A stretch of DNA of 39,156 bases from Flavobacteriales bacterium (GTDB lineage Bacteria; Bacteroidota; Bacteroidia; Flavobacteriales; BACL11): contig PBAP01000013.1 of the NCBI GenBank assembly GCA_002716345.1, positions 36,435 through 75,590 on the forward strand, in the 5' to 3' direction. The first letter of the stretch is position 1. Every line of letters begins with the position of its first letter. The position numbers were made by a program, and so were the translations under genes. Positions 26,842-39,156 of the stretch are shown piece after piece. The notes beneath the pieces were generated by a model that saw nothing but the letters and a program-made list of their open reading frames with translations, was not told the DNA's origin and ran no database searches.

Positions 26842-28185
26842 GTGAAGGATTTTAATTATCAAGATACAATTTGTGCGATTGCAACTGGAGGCGGCACAAG
26901 TGCAATAGCTATCATAAGAATTTCAGGAAAAAAATCATTTGACACCATAAAACAAATTTTTGATAAAAAAATCAATAGCATAAAATCACACACAGTAATT
27001 TTTGGTAACTTAAAGGAAAAAAATAAAATTGTTGATGAGGTTTTAATTTCATTTTTTGTTGGACCAAATTCGTATACGGGAGAAGACACTGTTGAAATCT
27101 CTTGCCACGGATCAAAATTTATTCAAAATAAAATTATACAACTTTTAACAGCTCATGGAATTCGTCCAGCTGAGCCTGGCGAGTTTACTATGAGAGCATT
27201 TTTAAATAAAAAATTAGATCTCTCACAAGCAGAATCAGTTGCAGATTTAATTAGCAGTGAAAATAAAATTGCGCATCAAACTTATATCAATCAACTAAAG
27301 GGGGGGTTCTCAAAAAAAATTAACAAACTTAAAGAGGAGTTAGTGAATTTTGCATCATTAATTGAACTAGAGCTAGATTTTAGTGAAGAAGATGTTGAAT
27401 TTGCTAGTAGAAAAAAATTAATAACATTACTTAAAAATTTAAAAGACGAAATTAGTTTCTTAATATCTTCATATATTGATGGTAACATTTTTAAAGAAGG
27501 TATAGTTGTTACAATATTAGGGCAACCTAATTCAGGAAAATCAACGTTATTAAATTGCATACTAAATGAAGAAAAAGCAATAACTTCAGATATCGCCGGT
27601 ACAACAAGAGATTTAATTGAGGATTCTATATATATTGATGGATTAACTTTTAGATTTACTGATACTGCAGGTCTTAGAGAAACTAAAAATGAAGTTGAAA
27701 ATCAAGGAATAAATAAAGCTATCGAAAAATCTAAAAAATCTAATATAATTATCAATTTGATTGATGCAACTAAGGATGTTACTCAACAAATAAATTATTT
27801 AAAAAACATTACGAAAAACAAGGATAGCATTTTTGTTTTAAATAAAACTGATTTAAAGAGAGTTGACAATAAAGATTGCATGGTTTTTATATCTGCAAAA
27901 AATAATATTGGAATTGATTTATTAAAAGAAGAATTATTAAATATCTGTGAAAAGTACAGATACAGTGACTCAAATGTTGTTTTAACTAATTCAAGACACT
28001 TAAATGAACTAAATGAATGCCTCAAAGAAGTTAATATTGTAATCGAAAACATTAATAAGCTGAGTTCAGATTTAATATCTGTAAATATCAGAAAAGCATT
28101 GGATCATTTAGGAAATATTACTGGTGAGATAACTACAGATAATTTACTTGGTAATATTTTTAGTAATTTTTGTATCGGAAAGTAA
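26842..28185 (+). CDS. mnmE: tRNA uridine-5-carboxymethylaminomethyl modification GTPase
   Basis: A 447-residue GTPase (also called trmE/thdF) that with MnmG modifies U34 of tRNAs. The N-terminal folate-binding domain has DTICAIATGGGTSAIAIIRISG and PGEFTMRAFLNKKLDLSQAESVADLI. The G domain shows GQPNSGKST (G1), DIAGTTRD (G2), DTAG (G3) and NKTD (G4). The C-terminus is the invariant FCIGK, whose Cys is essential for modification. The start codon is GTG. The DNA encoding FCIGK recurs 3.6 kb downstream, and the 3' end of this gene is a known integration site of SGI1-type islands; the gene itself is intact. Confidence 0.96.
   Translation: MKDFNYQDTICAIATGGGTSAIAIIRISGKKSFDTIKQIFDKKINSIKSHTVIFGNLKEKNKIVDEVLISFFVGPNSYTGEDTVEISCHGSKFIQNKIIQLLTAHGIRPAEPGEFTMRAFLNKKLDLSQAESVADLISSENKIAHQTYINQLKGGFSKKINKLKEELVNFASLIELELDFSEEDVEFASRKKLITLLKNLKDEISFLISSYIDGNIFKEGIVVTILGQPNSGKSTLLNCILNEEKAITSDIAGTTRDLIEDSIYIDGLTFRFTDTAGLRETKNEVENQGINKAIEKSKKSNIIINLIDATKDVTQQINYLKNITKNKDSIFVLNKTDLKRVDNKDCMVFISAKNNIGIDLLKEELLNICEKYRYSDSNVVLTNSRHLNELNECLKEVNIVIENINKLSSDLISVNIRKALDHLGNITGEITTDNLLGNIFSNFCIGK
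28167..28183 (+). repeat. Proximal attachment-site-like direct repeat inside the mnmE 3' end
   Basis: TTTTTGTATCGGAAAGT, coding for the last residues of MnmE. It matches 31779-31795 at 16 of 17 positions, with 13 consecutive identical bases (TGTATCGGAAAGT). The SGI1 attB as I recall it, TTCTGTATTGGTAAGTAA, occupies the same place in trmE of enterobacteria. Confidence 0.7.
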
Positions 28186-28295
28186 AGTTCTTTGCTTTTA
28201 TTATTCAAACTACTACTTATAATCTAGAGTAAATTAAAATAGTTTTCAACTAATTAATAAATAGTTGCTTTTGTTTGATGTTTTTTTGTTGCTAA

Positions 28296-28502
28296 TTTTT
28301 AGTTTTAAATCAATTTAGCACTCATAATCACTTTCTTATAAAGGGAAAAGGGGTTGAGAAGAAGATAGAGTATCACTTAAAGGAAAAAGGTCTAATTACT
28401 AATAATTTCAAACACTTAGATTATGAAAAGGGAGCAAGTATGTATGTGAGTAAATACATATGTAATGAAAACATAAACTACAACTATATAGATTCAAAGT
28501 AA
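28296..28502 (+). pseudogene. C-terminal fragment of an HUH rolling-circle Rep protein
   Basis: After a TAA at 28293, 68 codons without a start read through to TAA at 28500. The translation contains HNHFLIKG (an HxH-hydrophobic HUH metal motif), then about 35 residues later DYEKGASMYVSKYICNE, the YxxKY pattern of the catalytic tyrosine motif in rolling-circle replication initiators of plasmids and ssDNA phages. Order and spacing fit motifs 2 and 3 of that superfamily; motif 1 and everything upstream are missing. No ATG opens the frame except an internal Met inside the tyrosine motif. I treat it as a broken gene, probably a trace of an integrated ssDNA phage or small plasmid. Confidence 0.55.
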
Positions 28503-28518
28503 AAATTGTTAAGTTTGA
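28474..28518 (+). repeat. 45-bp direct repeat, copy 1 (Rep tail plus promoter box)
   Basis: Begins TAAACTACAACTATATAGA and ends TTGTTAAGTTTGA. Identical to 29703-29747 except one base (T versus G at the 20th position). It contains the last codons and stop of the Rep fragment and a TAAGTTTG box. Confidence 0.85.
28510..28517 (+). promoter_or_regulatory. -7 box upstream of the DUF2939-like gene
   Basis: TAAGTTTG, a TANNTTTG match at the 3' end of repeat copy 1; the next ATG is 27 bases downstream. No TTTG at -33. Confidence 0.5.
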
Positions 28519-28544
28519 TATAACTATTTATTAAAACAAAAATT

Positions 28545-29165
28545 ATGAAAAAATATATAGTTTTAATTTTATTAACTTCTTTTGGCTTTCTTGCTCATAA
28601 ATATTGGAAATCAACTCCACAATATAGTGCCAAAAGAGTTTTAGATTCTATTGAAAACAATGACATTTACTTATTTGAAAAACATTTTGATGTAGAGAGG
28701 GTAGCTGATAACATGAGTAACGAAATTGTTGCTTTAATGACAAAAGAAAATATTGACAATACAGACGATGATGATTGGGGTTTAATTGGTAAAGAGTTTG
28801 CATCAGGTTTAATGGAATTAATGAAACCTATTTTGTCAAAACAAATTTCTAATGAAATTAGAAAGTCGGTTTCAAAAAAAGAGACCAATTCATTAACCTC
28901 TGATTCACTATCATTTGCATTATTTGAAACCTCTGATTTAAGCTTAATAAATAAAGATAAAATAAGTGTTACAATAGGGTTATTATTTGATTCAGAAAAT
29001 ATAAAGTTTAAAAAAGAAGGTTCAACAACAACTTTAGAGGTATCAATAGACCCCACAAGTGAAAATGATTTAATTAAAATTGTCTTAAACAAATATGAGA
29101 ATTATTGGAAAGTAACTGAAATTAATAATTTAATTTCATTCATTTCAGAAAATGAAGATTTTTAA
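28545..29165 (+). CDS. DUF2939-like membrane-anchored or secreted protein
   Basis: 206 residues. A hydrophobic leader (MKKYIVLILLTSFGFLAH) is followed by STPQYSAKRVLDSIENNDIYLFEKHFDVERVADNMSNEI, which resembles the DUF2939 opening (SPYYAxxxlxxAixxxDxxxlxxyVDfxxvxxxl). The rest is helical with an acidic stretch (NTDDDDW) and ends in beta strands (TLEVSIDPTSENDLIKIVLNKYENYWKVTEINNLI) like a lipid-facing NTF2/START-type end. The family has no established function. It is the first intact gene inside the putative island and follows repeat copy 1, which offers its promoter box. Confidence 0.62.
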   Translation: MKKYIVLILLTSFGFLAHKYWKSTPQYSAKRVLDSIENNDIYLFEKHFDVERVADNMSNEIVALMTKENIDNTDDDDWGLIGKEFASGLMELMKPILSKQISNEIRKSVSKKETNSLTSDSLSFALFETSDLSLINKDKISVTIGLLFDSENIKFKKEGSTTTLEVSIDPTSENDLIKIVLNKYENYWKVTEINNLISFISENEDF

Positions 29166-29176
29166 CAAAACCCAAA

Positions 29177-29195
29177 GACTAACAATGAAAAAACT
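29177..29195 (+). repeat. 19-bp leader-and-start repeat with an aborted reading frame
   Basis: GACTAACAATGAAAAAACT here equals 30722-30740 with one change (GATTAACAATGAAAAAACT), where it is the start of a real gene. Here the ATG at 29185 leads only to MKKLVL and a stop. It looks like a truncated copy of a gene start. A third GATTAACAAT lies at 29208-29217, just before the ATG at 29221. Confidence 0.5.
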
Positions 29196-29220
29196 TGTAT
29201 TATAAAAGATTAACAATTAT

Positions 29221-29433
29221 ATGCAGAAATTAGAAAATTTCATTTACTCGGTTAAGTATTTACCTCCAATATTATATTTTGGATCTGTAGCATTGCTTGG
29301 TTATGACATTTATTATGATTTAACTAATGAAATAGAATTTTTAAATGTTTATACTGAAACACCATTAATTATCATCTTTTTTTTAATGACTTATTTGGGT
29401 GCAAAAAATATCAAAAGAAATAATAGTAAATGA
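29221..29433 (+). CDS. Small two-helix membrane protein
   Basis: 70 residues with two hydrophobic segments (YLPPILYFGSVALLGYDIYY and TPLIIIFFLMTYLGA) and a positively charged end (KNIKRNNSK). No family recognised. Its last four bases overlap the next gene (ATGA), so the two are translationally coupled and perhaps interact. Confidence 0.5.
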   Translation: MQKLENFIYSVKYLPPILYFGSVALLGYDIYYDLTNEIEFLNVYTETPLIIIFFLMTYLGAKNIKRNNSK

Positions 29434-29693
29434 AAAATTTTCTTGAAATTATTTTTACAATTTTTGCTTTAATATGTAGTGTGGATTTAATTTATGAAAA
29501 GTTAAATCATAATTGGTTTTTTGATTTTGAGAATAATTATATTTTCATTGCACTTTTACTTTACCAAGGTTTAAACTTTAGCAAAAGAAAATATACTAAC
29601 TTCAAAAGTTATTTCACTAAACTTTCTTTGTTTGAAATTATTTTTCTTGTGTACGTTTTTTTGTTCTGTATCTTCGAACTTTTCCTGTCCTAA
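29430..29693 (+). CDS. Small membrane protein
   Basis: 87 residues with three hydrophobic segments (FLEIIFTIFALICSVDLIY, NYIFIALLLYQGL, LFEIIFLVYVFLFCIFELFL). No family recognised. It is coupled to the preceding 70-residue gene through an ATGA overlap, and repeat copy 2 begins nine bases after its stop. Confidence 0.48.
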   Translation: MKNFLEIIFTIFALICSVDLIYEKLNHNWFFDFENNYIFIALLLYQGLNFSKRKYTNFKSYFTKLSLFEIIFLVYVFLFCIFELFLS

Positions 29694-29702
29694 CTTTTAA
29701 TC

Positions 29703-29747
29703 TAAACTACAACTATATAGAGTCAAAGTAAAAATTGTTAAGTTTGA
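29703..29747 (+). repeat. 45-bp direct repeat, copy 2
   Basis: 44 of 45 bases match copy 1 at 28474-28518, including the NYNYI[DE]SK-stop codons of the Rep tail, although no Rep gene precedes it here. It ends with the same TAAGTTTG box. Confidence 0.85.
29739..29746 (+). promoter_or_regulatory. -7 box upstream of the NTF2-like lipoprotein gene
   Basis: TAAGTTTG at the end of repeat copy 2, 18 bases before the ATG at 29765. That distance is within the range seen for other genes in the window. Confidence 0.5.
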
Positions 29748-29764
29748 AAAGAAAATAGTGTAAA

Positions 29765-30259
29765 ATGAAAAAATTATTAGTGATACTCATTTTATCTAAT
29801 TTATTACTGATTTCATGTACCAATAAAGTTCTCTATAATAAAAACTTAAATACTTGTGAAAATTTAGTTCTGGATATCAATAGGTTTTTTTATGATTCAA
29901 TAGATTCTAATTTCCTTTTAGAAAAATATTTTACTGATGACTTTATTTTCCATTACTTTCCAGCTGGTGATAGAAAGGGTGTAAAGATTTCAAAACAAGA
30001 ACTTCTTTATTTATTTTCAGACAAGAAAAAAAATAATATTGATTTTAATATTGTACACACAATTTTTTTACCTGGCTTAAATGAAATCACTCATAAAATT
30101 AATGGAAGTGTAAGAGTTTATTATGGTGCTGATATTTTTTTCAAAAACGATACTATTGAATTTTCTGGATATCAAACAATTAATTTAAAAAATCAAAAAA
30201 TATCAGCAATTTGGGAATGGGCAGACTACGGTGGAATAAGTAACTTATTGATTAACTGA
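29765..30259 (+). CDS. Lipoprotein with SnoaL/NTF2-like fold
   Basis: 164 residues; leader MKKLLVILILSNLLLISC with lipobox LISC (Cys 18). The mature part reads like a small NTF2/SnoaL-type cone: LEKYFTDDFIFHYFPAGDRKGVKISKQELLYLF, IVHTIFLPGLNEITHKINGSVRVYYGADIFFKNDTIEFSGYQTINLKNQKISAIWEWADYGG, where the last strand pair with a W is typical of NTF2-like proteins. No catalytic residues can be assigned. It stands behind repeat copy 2. Confidence 0.6.
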   Translation: MKKLLVILILSNLLLISCTNKVLYNKNLNTCENLVLDINRFFYDSIDSNFLLEKYFTDDFIFHYFPAGDRKGVKISKQELLYLFSDKKKNNIDFNIVHTIFLPGLNEITHKINGSVRVYYGADIFFKNDTIEFSGYQTINLKNQKISAIWEWADYGGISNLLIN

Positions 30260-30290
30260 AAATCGTTATAAATAAACAAATAGAAAAAAA

Positions 30291-30707
30291 ATGAAAAATT
30301 TACCATACTTAAATTCTGCTATAATAATTGGCATAATATTATTCCAATCAATTTTTATTGCTCCTGCAATAAATCAATTAATCAGCACTAATGAAGCAGC
30401 TGTTTTTCTGAGATACATATGGCCTATATTTTTTATAATAATTGGTTTGTTATCATTAATATCCTTCATATCTATTTTAAAAAATAAAAATCAAAATTCA
30501 GCACTAAAAATTTATATAATTATAAGTTTAACTTTAATGTCAAGCTGTTTTTTTTCTGTTCCATTTATTAATAATGCAAAAGACTTAGAAAATGAACTAC
30601 TTTGGTCAATTTTACATATGAAAACAGTTTTTTTCACATTAATTAGTCTCATATTAAACATATTAATAATCTTCAAATGGAATTTTTTCTTAAATGCAAC
30701 ACGGTAA
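30291..30707 (+). CDS. Four-helix membrane protein (DUF4149/TMEM205-like?)
   Basis: 138 residues with four hydrophobic helices (AIIIGIILFQSIFIAPAINQL, YIWPIFFIIIGLLSLISFISIL, IYIIISLTLMSSCFFSVPFI, TVFFTLISLILNILIIFKW). The first helix ending in IAPAI and the second with a WPIFF match the general look of DUF4149/TMEM205-type proteins; this is a weak resemblance. No function is assigned. Confidence 0.5.
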   Translation: MKNLPYLNSAIIIGIILFQSIFIAPAINQLISTNEAAVFLRYIWPIFFIIIGLLSLISFISILKNKNQNSALKIYIIISLTLMSSCFFSVPFINNAKDLENELLWSILHMKTVFFTLISLILNILIIFKWNFFLNATR

Positions 30708-30729
30708 AAATTAAAACAATAGATTAACA

Positions 30730-31137
30730 ATGAAAAAACTACTACAGCTTTTATTCTCTATTGCTATACTTTCAAATACAAGCTATGCTTCCTTCCCTAT
30801 CACTGAAAAAGCTGAAGTTGAATCGGCTCAAATATCAAAATTTGGGGATAATGATAATCGAAATATTTTACTGCTAGCCTTAGCTCCAATCCCTCTTGCA
30901 ATAATTGCTGCTATTGCATTTTTTGCTGGCTCTGTTGGATTTGTTGGATTTGTTTTTGGTTCTATTTTTGGATTTACAGCAGTTATTTCAGCTATCTATT
31001 CCATTTATTTAAATCTTAGAACTAATATTTCGTTTTGGGATTGGAGAAATTATTTTTCTATCCTCAGTGCTGTTGTATTAGGTGCCCTTGCACTATTTTG
31101 GACTCTCATTGTAATGGCTTATGGTGGAATAGGATAA
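30730..31137 (+). CDS. Small membrane protein with signal peptide
   Basis: 135 residues. Signal peptide MKKLLQLLFSIAILSNTSYA, then a polar stretch (SFPITEKAEVESAQISKFGDNDNRN) and three hydrophobic segments (ILLLALAPIPLAIIAAIAFFAG, VGFVGFVFGSIFGFTAVISAIYSIYL, FSILSAVVLGALALFWTLIVM). This arrangement resembles short Bacteroidota envelope proteins of unknown role. The leader and first codons (30722-30740) are duplicated at 29177-29195. Confidence 0.55.
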   Translation: MKKLLQLLFSIAILSNTSYASFPITEKAEVESAQISKFGDNDNRNILLLALAPIPLAIIAAIAFFAGSVGFVGFVFGSIFGFTAVISAIYSIYLNLRTNISFWDWRNYFSILSAVVLGALALFWTLIVMAYGGIG

Positions 31138-31159
31138 AACACAAGGCACTACCCTATGA

Positions 31160-31285
31160 GATTGGAGTTCTACTGAGGTCGATAACACCGGTGCGTGGAT
31201 TTACAAATTCGGCTATGGAGGCCCGCCCAGCTCCAAAGCTAAGAGCCTCAACCTCAGTGTTAGGGCTGTTCGGGCTTTTTAACCA
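31160..31285. other. GC-rich structured block, possible ncRNA or mobile-element end
   Basis: About half G+C in a region otherwise near 28 %. ACTGAGGT (31172-31179) and ACCTCAGT (31251-31258) are perfect inverted repeats. Inside, GGCTATGGAG (31211-31220) can pair with CTCCAAAGCT (31231-31240) apart from one A-A mismatch, around a GCCCGCCCAG loop, and CACCGGTG is a palindrome. On the minus strand a frame without ATG stays open for about 40 codons (SPNSPNTEVEALSFGAGRAS...NPRTGVIDLSRTPIS) and looks protein-like. I cannot decide between RNA, a recombination site and a gene fragment. Confidence 0.4.
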
Positions 31286-31340
31286 TTTAACTATTTAAAA
31301 TTTATTAGCATATTTTCTATTATATACTAAACGATATAAT

Positions 31341-31619
31341 ATGCCATTTAAGAAAGGAACAAGCGGAAACCCATTAGGAAGGCCTGTAGGCTCTATAAGT
31401 AGCTCTACAAAGCTTTTAAGAGAACAAATAGGCTTGGCTGTAGATGGAAACAAACTAAGCAATATGCTTAATCAAATAACTAATCCAACCGAATACATTA
31501 ATGCTGTAAGTAAGCTCCTTCCCTATGCTATTGGGAAAAAGAAAGCATATGAAGAAATAGAAGAAATGGAGCCTTTAGAAGTAACAATCAATTTTACAGG
31601 AACGGACGAAAACAATTAG
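31341..31619 (+). CDS. DUF5681-type phage-like small protein
   Basis: 92 residues opening with FKKGTSGNPLGRPVGS, the hallmark FKxGxSGNPxGRPxGS of DUF5681 proteins found in phages and gene transfer agents, often next to terminase genes. The rest is helical (STKLLREQIGLAVDGNKLSNMLNQI, INAVSKLLPYAIGKKKAYEEIEEME) and ends in a strand-like LEVTINFTG. No terminase or other phage gene follows, so it is an orphan or the last trace of a phage. Codons are somewhat less AT-rich than in the neighbouring island genes. Confidence 0.62.
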   Translation: MPFKKGTSGNPLGRPVGSISSSTKLLREQIGLAVDGNKLSNMLNQITNPTEYINAVSKLLPYAIGKKKAYEEIEEMEPLEVTINFTGTDENN

Positions 31620-31641
31620 TCAATTCGACTAAAAAAGAGTA

Positions 31642-31668
31642 AAAAGTATATTAATAATCTATACTTTT
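31642..31668 (+). terminator. Hairpin downstream of the DUF5681 gene
   Basis: AAAAGTATA (31642-31650) and TATACTTTT (31660-31668) form a perfect 9-bp stem around TTAATAATC. The stem is weak (AT-rich) but lies 22 bases after the stop and ends in a T run, so it may act as a terminator on either strand. Confidence 0.4.
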
Positions 31669-31778
31669 ATTAACATTTACAAAATTTTAAATGAAAGTTA
31701 TTGTGGTTAATTTGTTGTTTAAAAAAATAAAAAAAGTGTTAATCATTAAAAATCAATAAATTAGATTAGTTTCGGTAC

Positions 31779-31795
31779 TTTCTGTATCGGAAAGT
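31779..31795 (+). repeat. Distal attachment-site-like copy of the mnmE 3' end
   Basis: TTTCTGTATCGGAAAGT; 16 of 17 match 28167-28183, and it would still encode FCIGK. With the bases before it, TTTCGGTAC-TTTCT-GTATCGGAAA forms an imperfect dyad of the kind bound by tyrosine recombinases. No gene is associated with it. Confidence 0.65.
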
Positions 31796-32003
31796 TAGAA
31801 GATTACTCAAATTAGTTATTTGTTTTGTCTAATAACTTATGAAACTTTTTATACATTCTAAAAATTTTATCTAAAATTTAAAAATTATTTTTTATTTTTT
31901 TTTATTTTAGGCGGCTGATGGTTTTAAAGACTTAATATCATCACAACCAAAACAAGTTTAAAAATTTATTATTAAGGAAGAAAAACTTCAAAAAAAAAAC
32001 AAT
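31796..32003 (+). other. Intergenic leader of the giant surface-protein gene
   Basis: Very AT-rich sequence between the distal repeat and the giant gene. I see no TANNTTTG box, no open frame of interest and no hairpin with GC content. A small GC patch, GGCGGCTGATGG, stands at about 31911-31922. TTTGTTTTG near 31822 could be part of a promoter but is not convincing. An A-rich stretch precedes the ATG, as is common for Bacteroidota start sites. Confidence 0.4.
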
Positions 32004-35000
32004 ATGGAATCAAATTTTACTATTGGAAAAATATTAAAAAACAATATTTTACTATCTTTTATTTTTTCATTTGCATTTATCTATAATGCTAATGCACAAT
32101 GTACAGGAAATGCTATGCAATATCCCTCAGGGGCTATCACCGTTCCAAGTACCTGTAACACAATTACTAATATTTCTACATGTCAATATCTTAATGAACA
32201 CACACAGCTTACTGGAATTACAAGTGGTTATTCGTATACAGTAGAACACACTGGTGCAGGTAGCTGGATTGTTGTTTATGAAGGAGGAACTGGTCTGCCA
32301 GGATCAAATGGTGTTTTTGTTACTGATGGGTATAGTCCTCTAACATTTACAGCTTCATCATCATCAGACTATTGGGTGCACTGGGTAGCTGACAGTAATT
32401 GTACACAAGTCGGTTCGCCATGCAATACAACTACGATAAGCATTGCATCTGGTGGAAATTTAACATATGGTTGTACTGATCCTTTGGCACTTAATTTTGA
32501 TTCAACTGCAATTTGTGATTCTGGTTGTGTATACCAATATGGGTGTATGGACACAAATGCAAATAACTATGATTCAACAGCTGTATTTGAAAGTGGTCTT
32601 TGTAACTATGCCTGTGTCAGTGGTTCTCAATCTGAGAGTTTTGAAAGTAATCCTAATGGTTTAGATGGCACTCTTTGGTACAATGATCGTACAGGACCAG
32701 CTAACGCTTGGGTAAGAGGAAATAATACATCTACTGTAAATACAGGTCCAGCATTCGCTTACGACAGTACTTACTTTATGTATGTTGAAGGTAATTTATC
32801 AAATTCCAATACAAGCTATAAGCTAGTATCAAAGTGTGTTGATTTGAGTAGTTTCACCAACCCTTCTTTACTATTTGCTTATAATATGAACGGATCCGGT
32901 ATTGGTACTCTTGAAGTTGAAATTTCATTAGACTCTGGACAGACATGGACAAATCTTTGGGCATCCTCAGGAAACAAAGGACCAAATTGGTATGAAGCTC
33001 TAGTTCCGCTAAATCAATATACAGGTCCTTCAAAAGTAAGATTCAACTATGTACCCGGATCTAATATATTTTCAGATTGTGCAATTGATTTTGTAAGATT
33101 CTCAGAAGCTCCTCAATCAGGTTGTACCGATCCTTTTGCAGCCAACTATGATTCAACTGCAACTTATGATGACGGTTCTTGTTTATTTCCAGGTTGTTTA
33201 GATGTATATGCATCAAATTATTGTTCATCATGTAACCAAAATGATTCCTTATCTTGTATTTATCCAAACTGTGCTTCTCTTCCCATAATAGAAACATTTG
33301 AAGACACAAGTTTTAGTGTAAACAATTGGTTGACTACTGCTGGAGTAAATTCATCAGTTAATTTTTCTACCACATCACCACCTTCTATTGCTGGTAATGT
33401 ATCAGTTGAAATGGTTTCAAGCGGATCATTTAATGTTACTCCTTTTAACGAAATTGCAGCATTTGATTCAACTCAATATTTAGCTAATTTTTCTTCGTTA
33501 AATATTTGTTTAGACCTTTCTAATAATCAAAATGCTAGAATGTCAGCACTTGTTCATATGCCTGGAGTATCATTTACTCCAACACATTGGTTACGTGTTC
33601 TTGTTAATGGTAATGTTGTTTTTGATACTGATTCCTTCTCTTGTATGACGAATTCTAATTCAACATTAATTACAGGACCAGTCAGAACAAATATGGTAGT
33701 TTCAGACTCAATCATTTGGGATCTTTCAGCTTATGTTGGAAATTCAAATGTAAACGTTACTTTCCAAGTTGTAAGCTCTGCTGGAAATGAAACGTATATT
33801 GATAATATAAATATTTTTGAAATTTTGCCATGCACTTATTTTAGTTCATCAATTTCTTCTACTCCTGTAAGTTGTAACGGAGGAAATGATGGTTCTGCTT
33901 CTGCATCGCAAAGTAATTACTTACCAAGTTCATCTCAATCATACATCTGGTCTAATGGAGATACAAATTCAACTGCAAACAATCTAACAGCTGGATCATA
34001 CACTTGTGTGGTAAGTGACTTAACAAATGGGTGCTCAAATACATTATCAGTAACTGTAACTGAGCCCAGTAATGTTGTATTTAGTAGTATTATTGTTGAT
34101 GCTACTGATTCTATCTCCTCAAATGGTTCCATTGATGTTACACTTTCTGGTGGAAATGCATGTGCAACAGACTTCCAAATTGGATTTGGAACAACAGCAA
34201 CCAGTGGTAATTTTTCTACAGGTGCTCCCGGAGCAAATCTTTTTTATACTTACTATGAAGACAATAAAAGTGAAATTACATTCTTAGCGTCTGAACTAAC
34301 TGCAAATGGAATGCAAATTGGATCTCAGTTAGATGAAATTGGATGGGAAATTTCCTCTGCGAGCGGTCAAGACATGAACAACTTAACAATTGATATTGAG
34401 GAAAATGGTGTAGTAACAAATGTTTACTCATCGACCTACACTGCAGTTGTTGGTTGGAACATGATGAGTTTCACAAATCCATTTACTTGGAACGGAGGTG
34501 ATATTAAAGTTATCACATGCTTTGACAATGGGAATTGGACAAATGCAAACAATTTTTATTACACAACAACATCGTTTGTTAGTGTTCAAAGAAACTATGC
34601 TGACTTAGGAACTACAAGTCTTTGTAATGATCCTACTACAAGTAGCTCATCTGACAGACCAAATACAAGATTTGGAACTAACTCTAGTTCATATATATAT
34701 GCTTGGTCTAATGGGGATAGTACTGAGGATATAACTAATCTTTCAGCAGGCAACTATTCTGTCAATGTAACTGATTGTAAGAGTTGTACTTACTCTTCTT
34801 CATTTACTGTAGCTGTTAATACAATTTTAGGATGTACAAATCCAACTTCATGGAACTATAATCCTATTGCAAACGTCGATGACAGTTCATGTATTTCAGT
34901 TGCAACTGCATGTCTTGATTCAACAGCTTTCAACTATACACCTTTTGATTCATTAACAGCTAACACTAATGATTCCTCACTTTGTATTGCTAGAGTTTTT

Positions 35001-38000
35001 GGGTGTACAGATAGTACATTTATAAATTATGATCCTCTTGCTAATACGGATGATGGTAGTTGTGCCCTTTGTGTTGGTAATTCAGTTGCCCCTATAACAG
35101 AAAGTTTTGATAGCTTAGGATATCTTGGTATATTTTCTCAGTATACATCTGATGATATTGATTGGACACAAGATAACTTTGGAACACCTTCTATTGGAAC
35201 TGGTCCAAGTGATGATGTCACCGGCGGTGGATATTATTTATATTTAGAAGCCAGCGGAAATTCCAACAGTAGAGCTATGCTTTATTCAACTTGTGTTGAT
35301 ATCACGGCATTGGCTTCCCCTGCTCTAATATTCTCATATCATATGCTTGGGGGAGCAATGGGAACTCTTCATGTTGTGATTAACAATGATACTGCATGGA
35401 CACGATCAGGTCAGCAAGGAACTCAGTGGTATAGAGATCAAATTGACTTATCACCATATTCGAGTCCTGTAAGAATTGATTTTGTTGGTACTACTGGAAT
35501 TAGCTTCACATCAGATATGGCAATTGATCAGGTTAGTATTGATGAATTGTTATTAAGTGGCTGTACAAATCCTTCTGCTAATAACTATGACTCTACTGCA
35601 GTTATCGATGATGGTTCTTGTATTTATGCATGTACTGCAGCAATTCTTCAACTTTCAGAGTTAGCTAATGAAGGGTCTCCAAACGACTTTATTGAAATAA
35701 GAAATACTTCAGGATCAAGTTGTGATATTACTGGATGGCAAGTTGATGACAGTTTAGCAATGAACGATTGGACATTTAGCTCAGGTGTTATACCAGCAGG
35801 CGGTTTTTGGTATGCTTACAAAGATTCTTCTTATTCATACATAAACGACGTTAATGGTTTACTTGTTGATTCTGTAATAGGATCATTCACTTCAGATCTT
35901 AGTTCTCAAGGTGGAAATATATATCTAGTTAAAGGAACAGATACTGTGAACTTTGTGGTTGACTCCTCTTTAGCTGATGTAAATGGAGTTGAGTTTTCTC
36001 AAAGCATAACGCCATTTGGTTACTGTTATACATATCCAACAGCAGGTTATGCTAATAACTTATGTGAAGTATTTGGATGTAATGACACAACATCACTAAA
36101 TTATAATCCTTTAGCAACTCAAAATGATGGTTCATGTATAGCTACAATTTTAGGCTGTACAGATACATCTGCTATAAACTATGATTCATTAGCAAATGTT
36201 GACAATGGATTATGTCAATACCCTGTTTGTAATGTATATGCACCTTATCATCAACAATTTAGTACTGGTTCATTACCAATATCACAATGTCCTCAGAATG
36301 GATGGTTGACATCAGTAGTTACTGGAGGTGGCTGGTTATTTACAGGTACACCTGGTTATAATGCAGCTAATAATGGTAGACCTTCTGGAAGTTATGCCTG
36401 GGTTGATTTCTCAGGAACTGATATCGGAGCAATTTTACAGGTTGAAGATGTTAACATAACTCAGCTATCAGGTGCTCCTTATTTAATATTTGATTATTAC
36501 AGCGACCAGGGATCTAACACATTAACAGGCCAAAATAATATCTTACATGTTGAAGCTTTTGACTCAACTGGATGGGATTCAGTAATGACTTTACAAATAC
36601 AAACTGCAGGATGGCAAACTTTCACTATGGATTTATCTAATCACACTCTAGGCACTGACATTGTAAGAATTAGATTTAGAGCTGAGAGTGGTTTAGCTGG
36701 AAATGATTACAACAACGACTTACTTCTAGACGATGTAAAAGTTGAAAATCAGCCTTATCTAGGTTGTACAGATCCTTTATCTTGTAATTTTGATTCTTTA
36801 GCAAACGTTGATGACGGAAGTTGTTATGTACTAACTACAAGCACCTCAAGTTCCGATGTTACTTGTAATGGTGGAAATGATGGTGCGGTTTCTGTGTCAA
36901 CAAACATAACAGCTCAATCAATCCTTTGGTCAAATGGATCAACATCTGCGCAAGTGAATGGACTAACAGGAGGTATTTACTATGTCACTGTTCAAGATTC
37001 ACTTGGATGTACAGCTAGCGATTCAGCAGTTGTTAATGTTCCATCAGGAGCCTTAGTTACGTTAACTTCAGTTGGGGAATCATCAGCTGGAGCATCAGAT
37101 GGTCAAGTAATTGCCAATGTCTCTGGAGGGAATGCATGCCCAACAGATCTACAGTTTGGATTTAGTACTACAGCTAGTACCGGAAACAGTTCATTGCCAG
37201 GAGCAAATCTTTTCTATACATACTATGAAGATAATAAAAGTGAAATTACATTTTTAGCATCTGAGATTTCTGCATTAGGATTTACTGCAGGTCAGGAATT
37301 AACCTCTGTAGCATGGGAAATTTCTACTGCAAGTGGTTCACCTATGAACAACTTAACAATTGATATTGAAGAAAATGGTGTAGTAACCAATGTTCACTCT
37401 GGAACTTACACCGCTGTTACGGGATGGAATACGTTTACATTTTCTAATCCTATCACTTGGAACGGTAATGATATTAAGGTAATAACATGCTTTGACAATG
37501 GTGCTTGGACAAGTGCTAACAATTTTTATTACACAACAACATCATTTGCAAGTGTTCAAAGAAATTATGCAGACTTAGGTACTGCAAGTCTTTGTAATGA
37601 TCCTACAACAAGTAGCTCATTTGACAGACCAAACACGAGATTTGGAACCAACAATTCATCTTACACTTACAGTTGGTCAAACGGAAGCACAACACAAAAT
37701 ATTTCTGGATTATCAGCTGGACAATATTGTTTAACTGTCACTGATTGCAATGGCTGCGCAACAGCAGCAGTTTGTGAAACAGTTACTATTTCAGCAACAC
37801 TAGGTTGTACAGATCCTACTGCATCAAACTATAATCAGTTTGCAAACCAAGACGATGGAAGTTGTACATATGATTGTTCAATATTTGCATTATCTTTAGA
37901 CTCAATTAGTAATGTAGCACCGTGTAATGGAAATAACAATGGTTACATTCAAATAAGTACTAATCTTTGCTCCTTTGTGATCTGGAGTGATAATCAAAGT

Positions 38001-39156
38001 AACTCACTAATTAGATCAAACTTGTCTGCTGGTACATATAGCGTAACCGCGTACACATGTGACTCAGTTTGTGTTGATTCACTCACATTTGTGATATCTG
38101 AACCAAGTTCAATATCTGCAAATGGAACAGTCACCAACAGTACAACTGGATCAGATGGAGCAATTAGTTTAGTTGTCTCTGGAGGAAGTCCATGTCCTAA
38201 TATTGTGACTGGGTATTGTACATCAGTTGGCCCATCTTCTTCTATTGATTCTGAAGTAGAATCATTAAAACTAGTTGGTGATAATGACTCTATTGATTAC
38301 ATTGGTTGCCCTGGAGTAACAGGATTGAATGATCAAACAAATATAGAAGTAAGTCTATCTAATGGAAATACATACTCTATAAGTATTGATTTTGGAACAT
38401 GTGGAGGAGTATATTCTGGTGTTGGACAAGCTTGGATTGACTATAATATGGATGGAAACTTCAGTCAAAATGAGGCTATTGTAACTGCATATGGAGTAAA
38501 CGTTGGAACTCAAACTTATAACTTTACTGTACCTTCAAATTTAGGGTCAGGTAAAACAAGAATGAGAGTAATTCAATGGGAAGGTGGAGCAATACCTGTT
38601 AATGCATGTGGTCAGTTTACATACGGCTCACTAATTGACTTTACAGTATCTCTTAACGGAGGAGGATTTGGTTATGATTTCTTATGGTCAAACGGTGATA
38701 CAACTAAAGACTTGACGAACTTATCTACAGGAACCTATACAGTAAATATTACTGACTGTAACGGATGTAATATTTCTGAAACATTTAATGTAACAGGTGG
38801 TCTTGTATATGGATGTACGAATCCAAATGCATTGAACTATGATCCATTAGCTACTGTTGATGATGGTTCTTGTATAGCAATTCTTTATGGTTGTACTGAC
38901 TCTACAGCTACAAACTACTTCCCAGGCGCTAACGTAGATGATGGTTCATGTATATATTCAACATGTTCAGGTTCACTGATCACGAACTTAGGTGTTACGA
39001 ATGTTATTCATAACAGAGCTACGTTCACGTTTGATGACATGAATAGTTCAACATGTAGAGTAGACCAATTACGTATTAAGTATCGTGAAGTGGGTACAAG
39101 TGCTTGGAGCCAGAAGAACATGGGCTCACCAACAGGCTATGACCCAGTTACAGGAA
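32004..39156 (+). CDS. Giant secreted multidomain adhesin-like protein, probable T9SS cargo (3' end outside window)
   Basis: One open frame of 2,384 codons to the window end. Signal peptide MESNFTIGKILKNN...FAFIYNANA, cleavage before QC. Then in order: a beta-sandwich head; GCTD modules 1-2 (from 32469); MAM-like domain (about 32620-33110); modules 3-4; beta-sandwich (33280-33830); SprB repeat (33850-34070); second SprB repeat split by a 172-residue insert; modules 5-7; MAM-like domain (35090-35550); module 8; lamin-tail domain (LSELANEGSPNDFIEIRNTSG, 35640-36060); modules 9-10; MAM-like domain (36230-36760); module 11; two SprB repeats, the second split by a copy of the same insert; module 12; two more SprB repeats, the second split by a GEVED domain (CTSVGPSSSIDS...); modules 13-14; fibronectin III-like start. 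SprB-like proteins are surface adhesins in gliding Bacteroidota. GC content and cysteine content are well above the neighbours. Confidence 0.85.
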   Translation, partial: MESNFTIGKILKNNILLSFIFSFAFIYNANAQCTGNAMQYPSGAITVPSTCNTITNISTCQYLNEHTQLTGITSGYSYTVEHTGAGSWIVVYEGGTGLPGSNGVFVTDGYSPLTFTASSSSDYWVHWVADSNCTQVGSPCNTTTISIASGGNLTYGCTDPLALNFDSTAICDSGCVYQYGCMDTNANNYDSTAVFESGLCNYACVSGSQSESFESNPNGLDGTLWYNDRTGPANAWVRGNNTSTVNTGPAFAYDSTYFMYVEGNLSNSNTSYKLVSKCVDLSSFTNPSLLFAYNMNGSGIGTLEVEISLDSGQTWTNLWASSGNKGPNWYEALVPLNQYTGPSKVRFNYVPGSNIFSDCAIDFVRFSEAPQSGCTDPFAANYDSTATYDDGSCLFPGCLDVYASNYCSSCNQNDSLSCIYPNCASLPIIETFEDTSFSVNNWLTTAGVNSSVNFSTTSPPSIAGNVSVEMVSSGSFNVTPFNEIAAFDSTQYLANFSSLNICLDLSNNQNARMSALVHMPGVSFTPTHWLRVLVNGNVVFDTDSFSCMTNSNSTLITGPVRTNMVVSDSIIWDLSAYVGNSNVNVTFQVVSSAGNETYIDNINIFEILPCTYFSSSISSTPVSCNGGNDGSASASQSNYLPSSSQSYIWSNGDTNSTANNLTAGSYTCVVSDLTNGCSNTLSVTVTEPSNVVFSSIIVDATDSISSNGSIDVTLSGGNACATDFQIGFGTTATSGNFSTGAPGANLFYTYYEDNKSEITFLASELTANGMQIGSQLDEIGWEISSASGQDMNNLTIDIEENGVVTNVYSSTYTAVVGWNMMSFTNPFTWNGGDIKVITCFDNGNWTNANNFYYTTTSFVSVQRNYADLGTTSLCNDPTTSSSSDRPNTRFGTNSSSYIYAWSNGDSTEDITNLSAGNYSVNVTDCKSCTYSSSFTVAVNTILGCTNPTSWNYNPIANVDDSSCISVATACLDSTAFNYTPFDSLTANTNDSSLCIARVFGCTDSTFINYDPLANTDDGSCALCVGNSVAPITESFDSLGYLGIFSQYTSDDIDWTQDNFGTPSIGTGPSDDVTGGGYYLYLEASGNSNSRAMLYSTCVDITALASPALIFSYHMLGGAMGTLHVVINNDTAWTRSGQQGTQWYRDQIDLSPYSSPVRIDFVGTTGISFTSDMAIDQVSIDELLLSGCTNPSANNYDSTAVIDDGSCIYACTAAILQLSELANEGSPNDFIEIRNTSGSSCDITGWQVDDSLAMNDWTFSSGVIPAGGFWYAYKDSSYSYINDVNGLLVDSVIGSFTSDLSSQGGNIYLVKGTDTVNFVVDSSLADVNGVEFSQSITPFGYCYTYPTAGYANNLCEVFGCNDTTSLNYNPLATQNDGSCIATILGCTDTSAINYDSLANVDNGLCQYPVCNVYAPYHQQFSTGSLPISQCPQNGWLTSVVTGGGWLFTGTPGYNAANNGRPSGSYAWVDFSGTDIGAILQVEDVNITQLSGAPYLIFDYYSDQGSNTLTGQNNILHVEAFDSTGWDSVMTLQIQTAGWQTFTMDLSNHTLGTDIVRIRFRAESGLAGNDYNNDLLLDDVKVENQPYLGCTDPLSCNFDSLANVDDGSCYVLTTSTSSSDVTCNGGNDGAVSVSTNITAQSILWSNGSTSAQVNGLTGGIYYVTVQDSLGCTASDSAVVNVPSGALVTLTSVGESSAGASDGQVIANVSGGNACPTDLQFGFSTTASTGNSSLPGANLFYTYYEDNKSEITFLASEISALGFTAGQELTSVAWEISTASGSPMNNLTIDIEENGVVTNVHSGTYTAVTGWNTFTFSNPITWNGNDIKVITCFDNGAWTSANNFYYTTTSFASVQRNYADLGTASLCNDPTTSSSFDRPNTRFGTNNSSYTYSWSNGSTTQNISGLSAGQYCLTVTDCNGCATAAVCETVTISATLGCTDPTASNYNQFANQDDGSCTYDCSIFALSLDSISNVAPCNGNNNGYIQISTNLCSFVIWSDNQSNSLIRSNLSAGTYSVTAYTCDSVCVDSLTFVISEPSSISANGTVTNSTTGSDGAISLVVSGGSPCPNIVTGYCTSVGPSSSIDSEVESLKLVGDNDSIDYIGCPGVTGLNDQTNIEVSLSNGNTYSISIDFGTCGGVYSGVGQAWIDYNMDGNFSQNEAIVTAYGVNVGTQTYNFTVPSNLGSGKTRMRVIQWEGGAIPVNACGQFTYGSLIDFTVSLNGGGFGYDFLWSNGDTTKDLTNLSTGTYTVNITDCNGCNISETFNVTGGLVYGCTNPNALNYDPLATVDDGSCIAILYGCTDSTATNYFPGANVDDGSCIYSTCSGSLITNLGVTNVIHNRATFTFDDMNSSTCRVDQLRIKYREVGTSAWSQKNMGSPTGYDPVTG
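34164..34679 (+). repeat. Inserted domain, copy 1, inside the second SprB repeat
   Basis: About 172 residues between SGGNAC and SSYIYAWSNGDST. Highly similar to 37140-37649; both contain PGANLFYTYYEDNKSEITF, MNNLTIDIEENGVVTNV, DIKVITCFDNG and NNFYYTTTSF and end RPNTRFGTN. Many stretches are identical at DNA level, so the duplication is fairly recent or homogenised. Confidence 0.8.
37140..37649 (+). repeat. Inserted domain, copy 2, inside a later SprB repeat
   Basis: About 170 residues between SGGNAC and SSYTYSWSNGSTT; the partner of 34164-34679. The flanking SprB halves are also related, so the duplicated unit may be larger than the insert. Confidence 0.8.
38196..38657 (+). other. GEVED domain inserted in an SprB repeat
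   Basis: Part of the giant protein. Between SGGSPC and FGYDFLWSNGDTT lies a GEVED-type domain, recognised by YCTSVGPSSSIDSEVESL near its start, GYIGCPGV-like IDYIGCPGVTGLNDQT, then AWIDYNMDGNFSQNEAIV and RMRVIQWEGG. It occupies the same position in its host repeat as the other two inserts but is a different fold family. Confidence 0.75.

Follow-up and report, generated by a model that had tools for sequence, protein, structure and literature searches.

A 3.6-kb island next to mnmE, at its 3' end, in the genome of a marine Flavobacteriales bacterium: probable decayed member of a family of satellite-like integrative elements

The island at the end of mnmE

The analyzed window, a stretch of 39,156 nucleotides from a Flavobacteriales bacterium (assembly GCA_002716345.1, contig PBAP01000013.1, forward-strand positions 36,435 to 75,590), carries a 3.6-kb island of foreign DNA, with a G+C content of 26%, at the very end of mnmE, a tRNA-modification gene of this marine genome. 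The segment TTTTTGTATCGGAAAGT, formed by the last mnmE codons (28167–28183), is repeated at 31779–31795 with one mismatch in 17 bp, and the mnmE reading frame is kept intact despite the insertion at its 3' end. The 13-mer TGTATCGGAAAGT has exactly two copies in the whole 1.50-Mb assembly, namely the two island ends, against about 0.05 per assembly and 7e-5 per 4-kb stretch expected from base composition; the 18-mer pattern of the site, with up to two mismatches, matches twice in the window against 0.01 matches expected. The repeat with its 13 identical bases, reported in the preliminary description, is borne out by these counts.

The right-hand site contains a perfect inverted repeat of the kind that a tyrosine-recombinase core should have, and this site is conserved in relatives. 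The arm-type motif TTTGTTGCTAATTTT of the left arm is present also in the right arms of elements from two other genomes (G062 and G020), and motif TTTGTTGCTRATTTT is found in both left and right arms; if an integrase carries an arm-binding domain, repeated arm motifs of this kind would be expected.

Window positions 28153–28317 show 88% DNA identity over 165 bp to the mnmE end and left arm of an integrase-bearing element in genome G011, and this match then jumps into codon ~70 of the replication gene rep, which indicates that the integrase gene, a helix-turn-helix (HTH) gene, and the first ~70 rep codons were lost by deletion at this junction. The Rep profile matches the remnant with E=6e-19 (profile positions 59–129, reported over 28278–28496). 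The preliminary description noted that no integrase was visible, and this deletion accounts for it; since an integrase gene is present at the same site in three other genomes (G062, G011, G012), we call the window copy a decayed member rather than an autonomous element. The right attachment (att) site has drifted (AAGTTAG, as against AAGTAA in intact elements), one cargo gene is truncated, and rep has no start codon, all of which point to decay. Taken together with the relatives described below, the island is almost certainly a product of site-specific integration at the mnmE 3' end, and we put at about 0.9 the probability that it is what decay has left of a small integrative element, from a family with the gene order integrase, HTH, Rep, cargo, DUF5681 (Table 1).

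A repeat of ~48 bp comprising the rep end (28474 and 29703) opens each of two cargo blocks. Behind the right core of G062 lies a second left arm, and G061 carries a tandem pair of elements at tRNA-Ser; we therefore infer that the window island arose from two tandem elements that collapsed into one.

The block was described earlier as rich in ORFans with traces of phage or plasmid, which is consistent with the rep fragment, the DUF5681 gene, and the truncated Lcl_C/DUF1566 gene end. The region around this gene end (31140–31290) has a G+C content of 50%, as opposed to 26% in the island, and an intact counterpart with collagen repeats and Lcl_C adjoins DUF5681 in G064. The product of the first cargo gene (28545–29165) shows weak matches to the PADLOC candidate-defence family PDC-S55 (E=3.8e-8) and to DUF2939; a 36% identical homologue occupies the corresponding position behind mnmE in G005. 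A PDC-S55-like first cargo gene would fit a satellite, though it is no proof of one. The counterpart of the gene at 30291–30707 in G113, a genome of another family, adjoins a Rep gene.

Table 1. Coordinates of the island, its attachment sites, and the adjacent sequence in the window
Feature	Position	Strand	Description
mnmE, host gene	26842–28185	+	447 aa; 3' end is the attachment site; homologues in relatives
attL core	28167–28183	+	13 bp (28171–28183) identical to the right copy
Left arm (attP arm)	28184–28317	+	Similar to the left arm in G011; motif TTTGTTGCTAATTTT at ~28285–28299
Deletion junction	28310–28320		Left-arm similarity stops, rep similarity starts (rep codon ~70)
rep remnant	28317–28502	+	Last 61 codons; retains HUH motif THNH and the tyrosine of YVSKYIC; lacks a start codon
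Direct repeat, copy 1 (family D1)	28474–28521	+	rep end and cargo leader
Cargo open reading frame	28545–29165	+	206 aa; PDC-S55 (candidate phage defence), weak match; G005 homologue
Cargo membrane open reading frame	29221–29433	+	70 aa; homologue with 74% identity lies behind mnmE in G024
Cargo membrane open reading frame	29430–29693	+	87 aa; no match
Direct repeat, copy 2 (family D1)	29703–29750	+	rep end and leader; marks the second cargo block
Cargo lipoprotein-like open reading frame	29765–30259	+	164 aa; weak SnoaL; 50% identical homologue in the G064 element array
Cargo membrane open reading frame, DUF4149	30291–30707	+	138 aa; 80% aa / 85% DNA identity to a G113 gene
Shared cargo leader	30711–30745	+	Identity over 26–35 bp with three cargo leaders on C10, another contig of this genome (G000)
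Cargo secreted/membrane open reading frame	30730–31137	+	135 aa
Truncated 3' end of Lcl_C/DUF1566 surface-protein gene	31163–31282	+	120 bp
DUF5681 gene	31341–31619	+	92 aa; constantly the last gene in this family; may encode a small terminase-like protein
Right arm	31620–31776		Aligned with the right arms of G062 and G020
attR core	31777–31795	+	Perfect inverted repeat ACTTTC-TGTATCG-GAAAGT
Native flank	31796–32010		Collinear with G001 and G004 from ~31816–31830 onward

Downstream of the island, the region 32003–39018 encodes very large secreted proteins with internal repeats and is conserved in G001 and G004; a 532-bp stretch of it matches a second place at 75%.

Related elements and their attachment sites

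One intact relative at the mnmE 3' end is a 7.1-kb element between two core copies on contig C97 (CAJQLK010000097.1) of G062, an uncultured Flavobacteriales metagenome-assembled genome (MAG). Its gene order is tyrosine integrase, HTH, Rep, cargo, DUF5681, and the right site. The integrase (397 aa) has the domains Arm-DNA-bind_5, SAM_5, and Phage_integrase; the HTH_17 protein matches the NCBIfam model "excise"; Rep (131 aa) matches REP_ORF2-G2P; and the cargo proteins mostly start with MKKLL. Here and below, integrases, excisionases, and Rep proteins were assigned by Pfam or NCBIfam models above curated cut-offs. The left half of an element (mnmE, integrase, HTH, Rep, up to the contig end) is seen in G011, and an integrase directly at mnmE in G012, so that integrases do occur beside the same site, as the preliminary description had suggested looking for.

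Intact elements of the family are 6.8–7 kb long. In the complete ~6.8-kb element of G061, the last 14 nt of tRNA-Ser are repeated behind the integrase. DUF5681 is the last gene in all of the measured elements (10/10), 97–180 bp from the att core or the tRNA end, the sites being mnmE, tRNA-Ser(GGA), tRNA-Asp(GTC), and tRNA-Val(TAC). A DUF5681 gene also adjoins the tmRNA gene in G015 and lies near tmRNA in G132, a genome of another family (L070, L146); tmRNA may be a further attachment site. Some elements at tRNA-Asp have HTH and Rep as their first genes, immediately beside the tRNA, and lack an integrase there (L121, L123). Relatives of DUF5681 are present in 22 of the 52 genomes of the family, in up to seven copies, and those of Rep in 26 of the 398 genomes of the order, mostly within this family.

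A second element of the window's own genome lies on contig C10 (L041, 1–6059), which begins inside the integrase; it comprises the remaining integrase part, HTH, Rep, cargo, and DUF5681, and ends at tRNA-Ser(GGA). Its integrase is 86% identical to the mnmE-type integrase of G011. The DNA of the integrase–HTH–rep module shows 92% identity over 1187 bp between C10 and G011, a genome of another genus, while the mnmE genes are ~69% identical; hence, the comparison indicates a recent horizontal transfer of this module between genera.

Several observations concern the cargo. A near-identical leader and signal-peptide start precedes unrelated secreted cargo genes in the window (30711–30745) and on C10 (L041, at 1811, 2399, and 3297); such a common leader could allow homologous recombination to swap cargo genes. 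Contig C1 of G064 (L063, L064) carries arrays of full and truncated DUF5681 genes with secreted cargo genes between them, as if many insertions had occurred at one place and the mobility genes had been lost. Isolated C-terminal rep fragments (the last ~20–40 codons) are found in many genomes, in several cases before cargo genes (L125, L126, L129, L130, L131, L133); perhaps the rep end persists as the carrier of a cargo promoter or an origin.

The preliminary description proposed that close relatives be searched for an empty site, and such sites are found in two congeners, G001 and G004, whose MnmE proteins are 96% and, over the part covered, 95% identical to that of the window, respectively. 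In both, mnmE is followed by ~90–130 bp and then by the large secreted-protein region of the window, from 31816–31830; the 3.6-kb block is absent and the att site is single in otherwise collinear DNA. The genes of the island are not conserved in synteny downstream of mnmE across the family, as the island proposal implied. The left arm of the element follows mnmE in six genomes (G000, which is that of the window, G005, G009, G011, G012, and G062), and was not seen after mnmE in nine others (G001, G008, G013, G014, G015, G016, G017, G021, and G023). Directly 3' of mnmE lie apparent native efflux genes in G014 (TetR–HlyD–RND) and G016 (HlyD–RND), named by sequence and gene order.

Both states of the site are seen in a single MAG, G020: contig C17 has mnmE, core, and flank, and contig C109 has DUF5681, core, and flank, the flanks being identical for ~65 bp and continuing on C109 into TetR–HlyD, the native mnmE neighbours. 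By this gene order, the two contigs represent an attB/attR pair inside one MAG. The flank was also considered as the left arm of a second element, as in G062, and this was rejected on account of the TetR–HlyD genes behind it, which mark a native flank. Even if the satellite reading discussed below is wrong, the window is a clear case of a Bacteroidota mnmE attachment site for which the empty, the occupied, and the decayed state can all be compared.

Mode of transfer and alternative readings

Judging by the protein families, the integrase would recombine attP with the mnmE end, keeping the coding sequence; the HTH protein would direct excision; and Rep would replicate the excised circle by the rolling-circle mechanism. 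Less certainly, DUF5681 would be a small-terminase-like DNA-recognition protein and a helper phage would package the element DNA. The window copy would have no mobility of its own and could move only with the integrase of a sibling, e.g., that on C10.

As the mode of transfer we tentatively prefer packaging by phages, in the manner of the phage satellites known as phage-inducible chromosomal islands (PICIs) and their minimalist counterparts (PICMIs), because in two phages a DUF5681 homologue adjoins the large terminase, and because the elements resemble PICIs in gene order. One homologue (36% identity over 84 aa) is directly upstream of the large terminase (E=2e-39) in an IMG/VR phage; the other (37% over 82 aa) has the same position in Acetobacter phage phiAX1, followed by the large terminase (E=8e-23) and then the portal gene, and itself matches a small-terminase family (E=6e-4). 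The DUF5681 protein of the elements has no match to small-terminase (terS) profiles.

Some observations complicate the picture. As to the site, the "empty" mnmE end of G004 (L034) has 43 bp in common with the left arm of the G012 element, so that another element may have left a scar there; the empty site of G001 has no such trace. The C10 element has an mnmE-type integrase yet ends at tRNA-Ser, which breaks a simple rule of one integrase per site; this element is either a recombinant or a case of changed target. Against the satellite part, Ounavirinae phages carry DUF5681 away from the terminase genes; a search of IMG/VR with the Rep tail, Rep, and DUF5681 yielded one phage and no element; no helper phage was identified; and the AlphaFold model of DUF5681 is of low confidence (pLDDT 59) and not usable. 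The DNA search of phage records gave no match, sequence searches against solved structures yielded no convincing relative, and a fold search was uninformative. The Rep model is likewise too poor to use (pLDDT 48), its strand–helix–strand–strand order being merely compatible with an HUH fold.

On the unlikely side, the same integrative element might spread by conjugation or natural transformation, with the HUH protein as a relaxase for a helper, as in an integrative mobilizable element (IME) like NBU1 or SGI1, and DUF5681 as an accessory DNA-binding protein. HUH proteins serve both as Rep and as relaxase, which counts in favour of this possibility. In addition, IMEs with tyrosine integrases and recombination directionality factors are known in Bacteroidetes (PMC5704250), and SGI1 uses the same gene end (PMC8409611). 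However, the tested Rep proteins (six of six) all match the replication family REP_ORF2-G2P and none a mobilisation family; canonical Bacteroidetes IMEs encode canonical relaxases of their own (PMC5704250), and none was found in these elements; and the position of DUF5681 homologues beside the phage terminase also argues for packaging.

The window copy could also be alive, as a minimal non-autonomous island moved in trans by its siblings, the loss of the integrase being a stable lifestyle; this variant is compatible with the integrative-element reading. In its favour, the two cores and the left arm have survived, a related integrase is available on C10 of the same genome, and similar losses of integrase, HTH, and rep, with different end points, are seen at mnmE in G009, G063, and probably G005. 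We nevertheless regard it as unlikely, as the signs of decay listed above (attR, the truncated cargo gene, rep) point the other way.

That the island is left over from a single-stranded DNA phage, an inovirus or microvirus that had integrated, is highly improbable: REP_ORF2-G2P is indeed a family of small replication proteins, but the complete relatives have no recognised coat, morphogenesis, or pilot protein and carry an integrase–excisionase pair and DUF5681 instead. A prophage origin was rejected too, no structural phage genes being recognised in the complete relatives (L071, L072, L041). Finally, a chance repeat in AT-rich DNA, with the block as ordinary species-specific sequence, is practically negligible: a partial mismatch in the four bases ahead of the core and an A+T content of 70% would fit it, but the site matches exceed expectation as given above, empty sites exist, and the same core flanks intact elements in other genera.

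Returning to packaging by phages, if the satellite reading is true, elements of the family may travel inside phage particles, streamlined marine Flavobacteriales have in them a means of passing surface and secreted proteins from one genus to another, and DUF5681, being constant, can serve as a marker in searches for elements of this kind. Phage satellites have been described mainly from Pseudomonadota and Bacillota (PMC10690885), and a literature text search for phage satellites and Bacteroidota gave no satellite family of that phylum in the titles and opening parts of the abstracts of the two papers that named both.

Comparison with known systems

The family resembles PICIs (PMC6092414) in the order of integrase, excisionase/AlpA-like HTH, replication gene, and accessory genes, to which some PICIs add terS, and also in specific att sites and similar size, the PICI average being 9.5 kb (PMC10803314). 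The first three genes are in PICI order in the relatives, whereas the window copy keeps only the rep remnant. Unlike PICIs, the family has a Bacteroidota host, a small HUH Rep rather than Pri-Rep, DUF5681 in place of any recognised terS, and cargo that consists mostly of secreted or membrane proteins.

PICMI of Vibrionaceae is a 6-kb minimalist marine element at the end of a housekeeping gene, with three core excision and replication proteins and reported plasmid-like rolling-circle concatemers (PMC10803314). The elements described here are likewise small, marine, and located at a housekeeping-gene end; however, PICMI sits next to fis in gammaproteobacteria, and no packaging-redirecting gene was found in it (PMC10803314), as opposed to the constant DUF5681.

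The preliminary description compared the target with that of SGI1, and this is correct for the site, the mnmE/trmE 3' end; a tyrosine integrase with a recombination directionality factor is common to the SGI1 family and ours as well (PMC8409611). SGI1 differs in being a 43-kb element of gammaproteobacteria with mpsAB, mobilised for conjugation by IncC plasmids (PMC8409611). The SGI1 backbone genes (mpsAB, tra) were not found in the 3.6–7 kb elements, and kinship beyond the target site was rejected.

NBU-type IMEs (PMC5704250) also have Bacteroidetes hosts, a tyrosine integrase, and an excisionase-type HTH protein, and relatives of the integrase and HTH protein were found in gut contigs; but no canonical relaxase is seen in our family, which has Rep and DUF5681 instead. 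PMC11389934 and PMC10690885 cite virion-encapsidated integrative mobile elements (VEIMEs), whose assemblies come from virion DNA and some of which have no integrase; VEIMEs and tycheposons, as they are described there, are similarly small mobile elements of marine bacteria, a likeness of description and not of sequence. With VEIMEs compared in this way, the family seems to be undescribed. On the comparison with SGI1, Bacteroidetes IMEs, and VEIMEs, we class it as an integrative, satellite-like element, with the window island as a decayed member.

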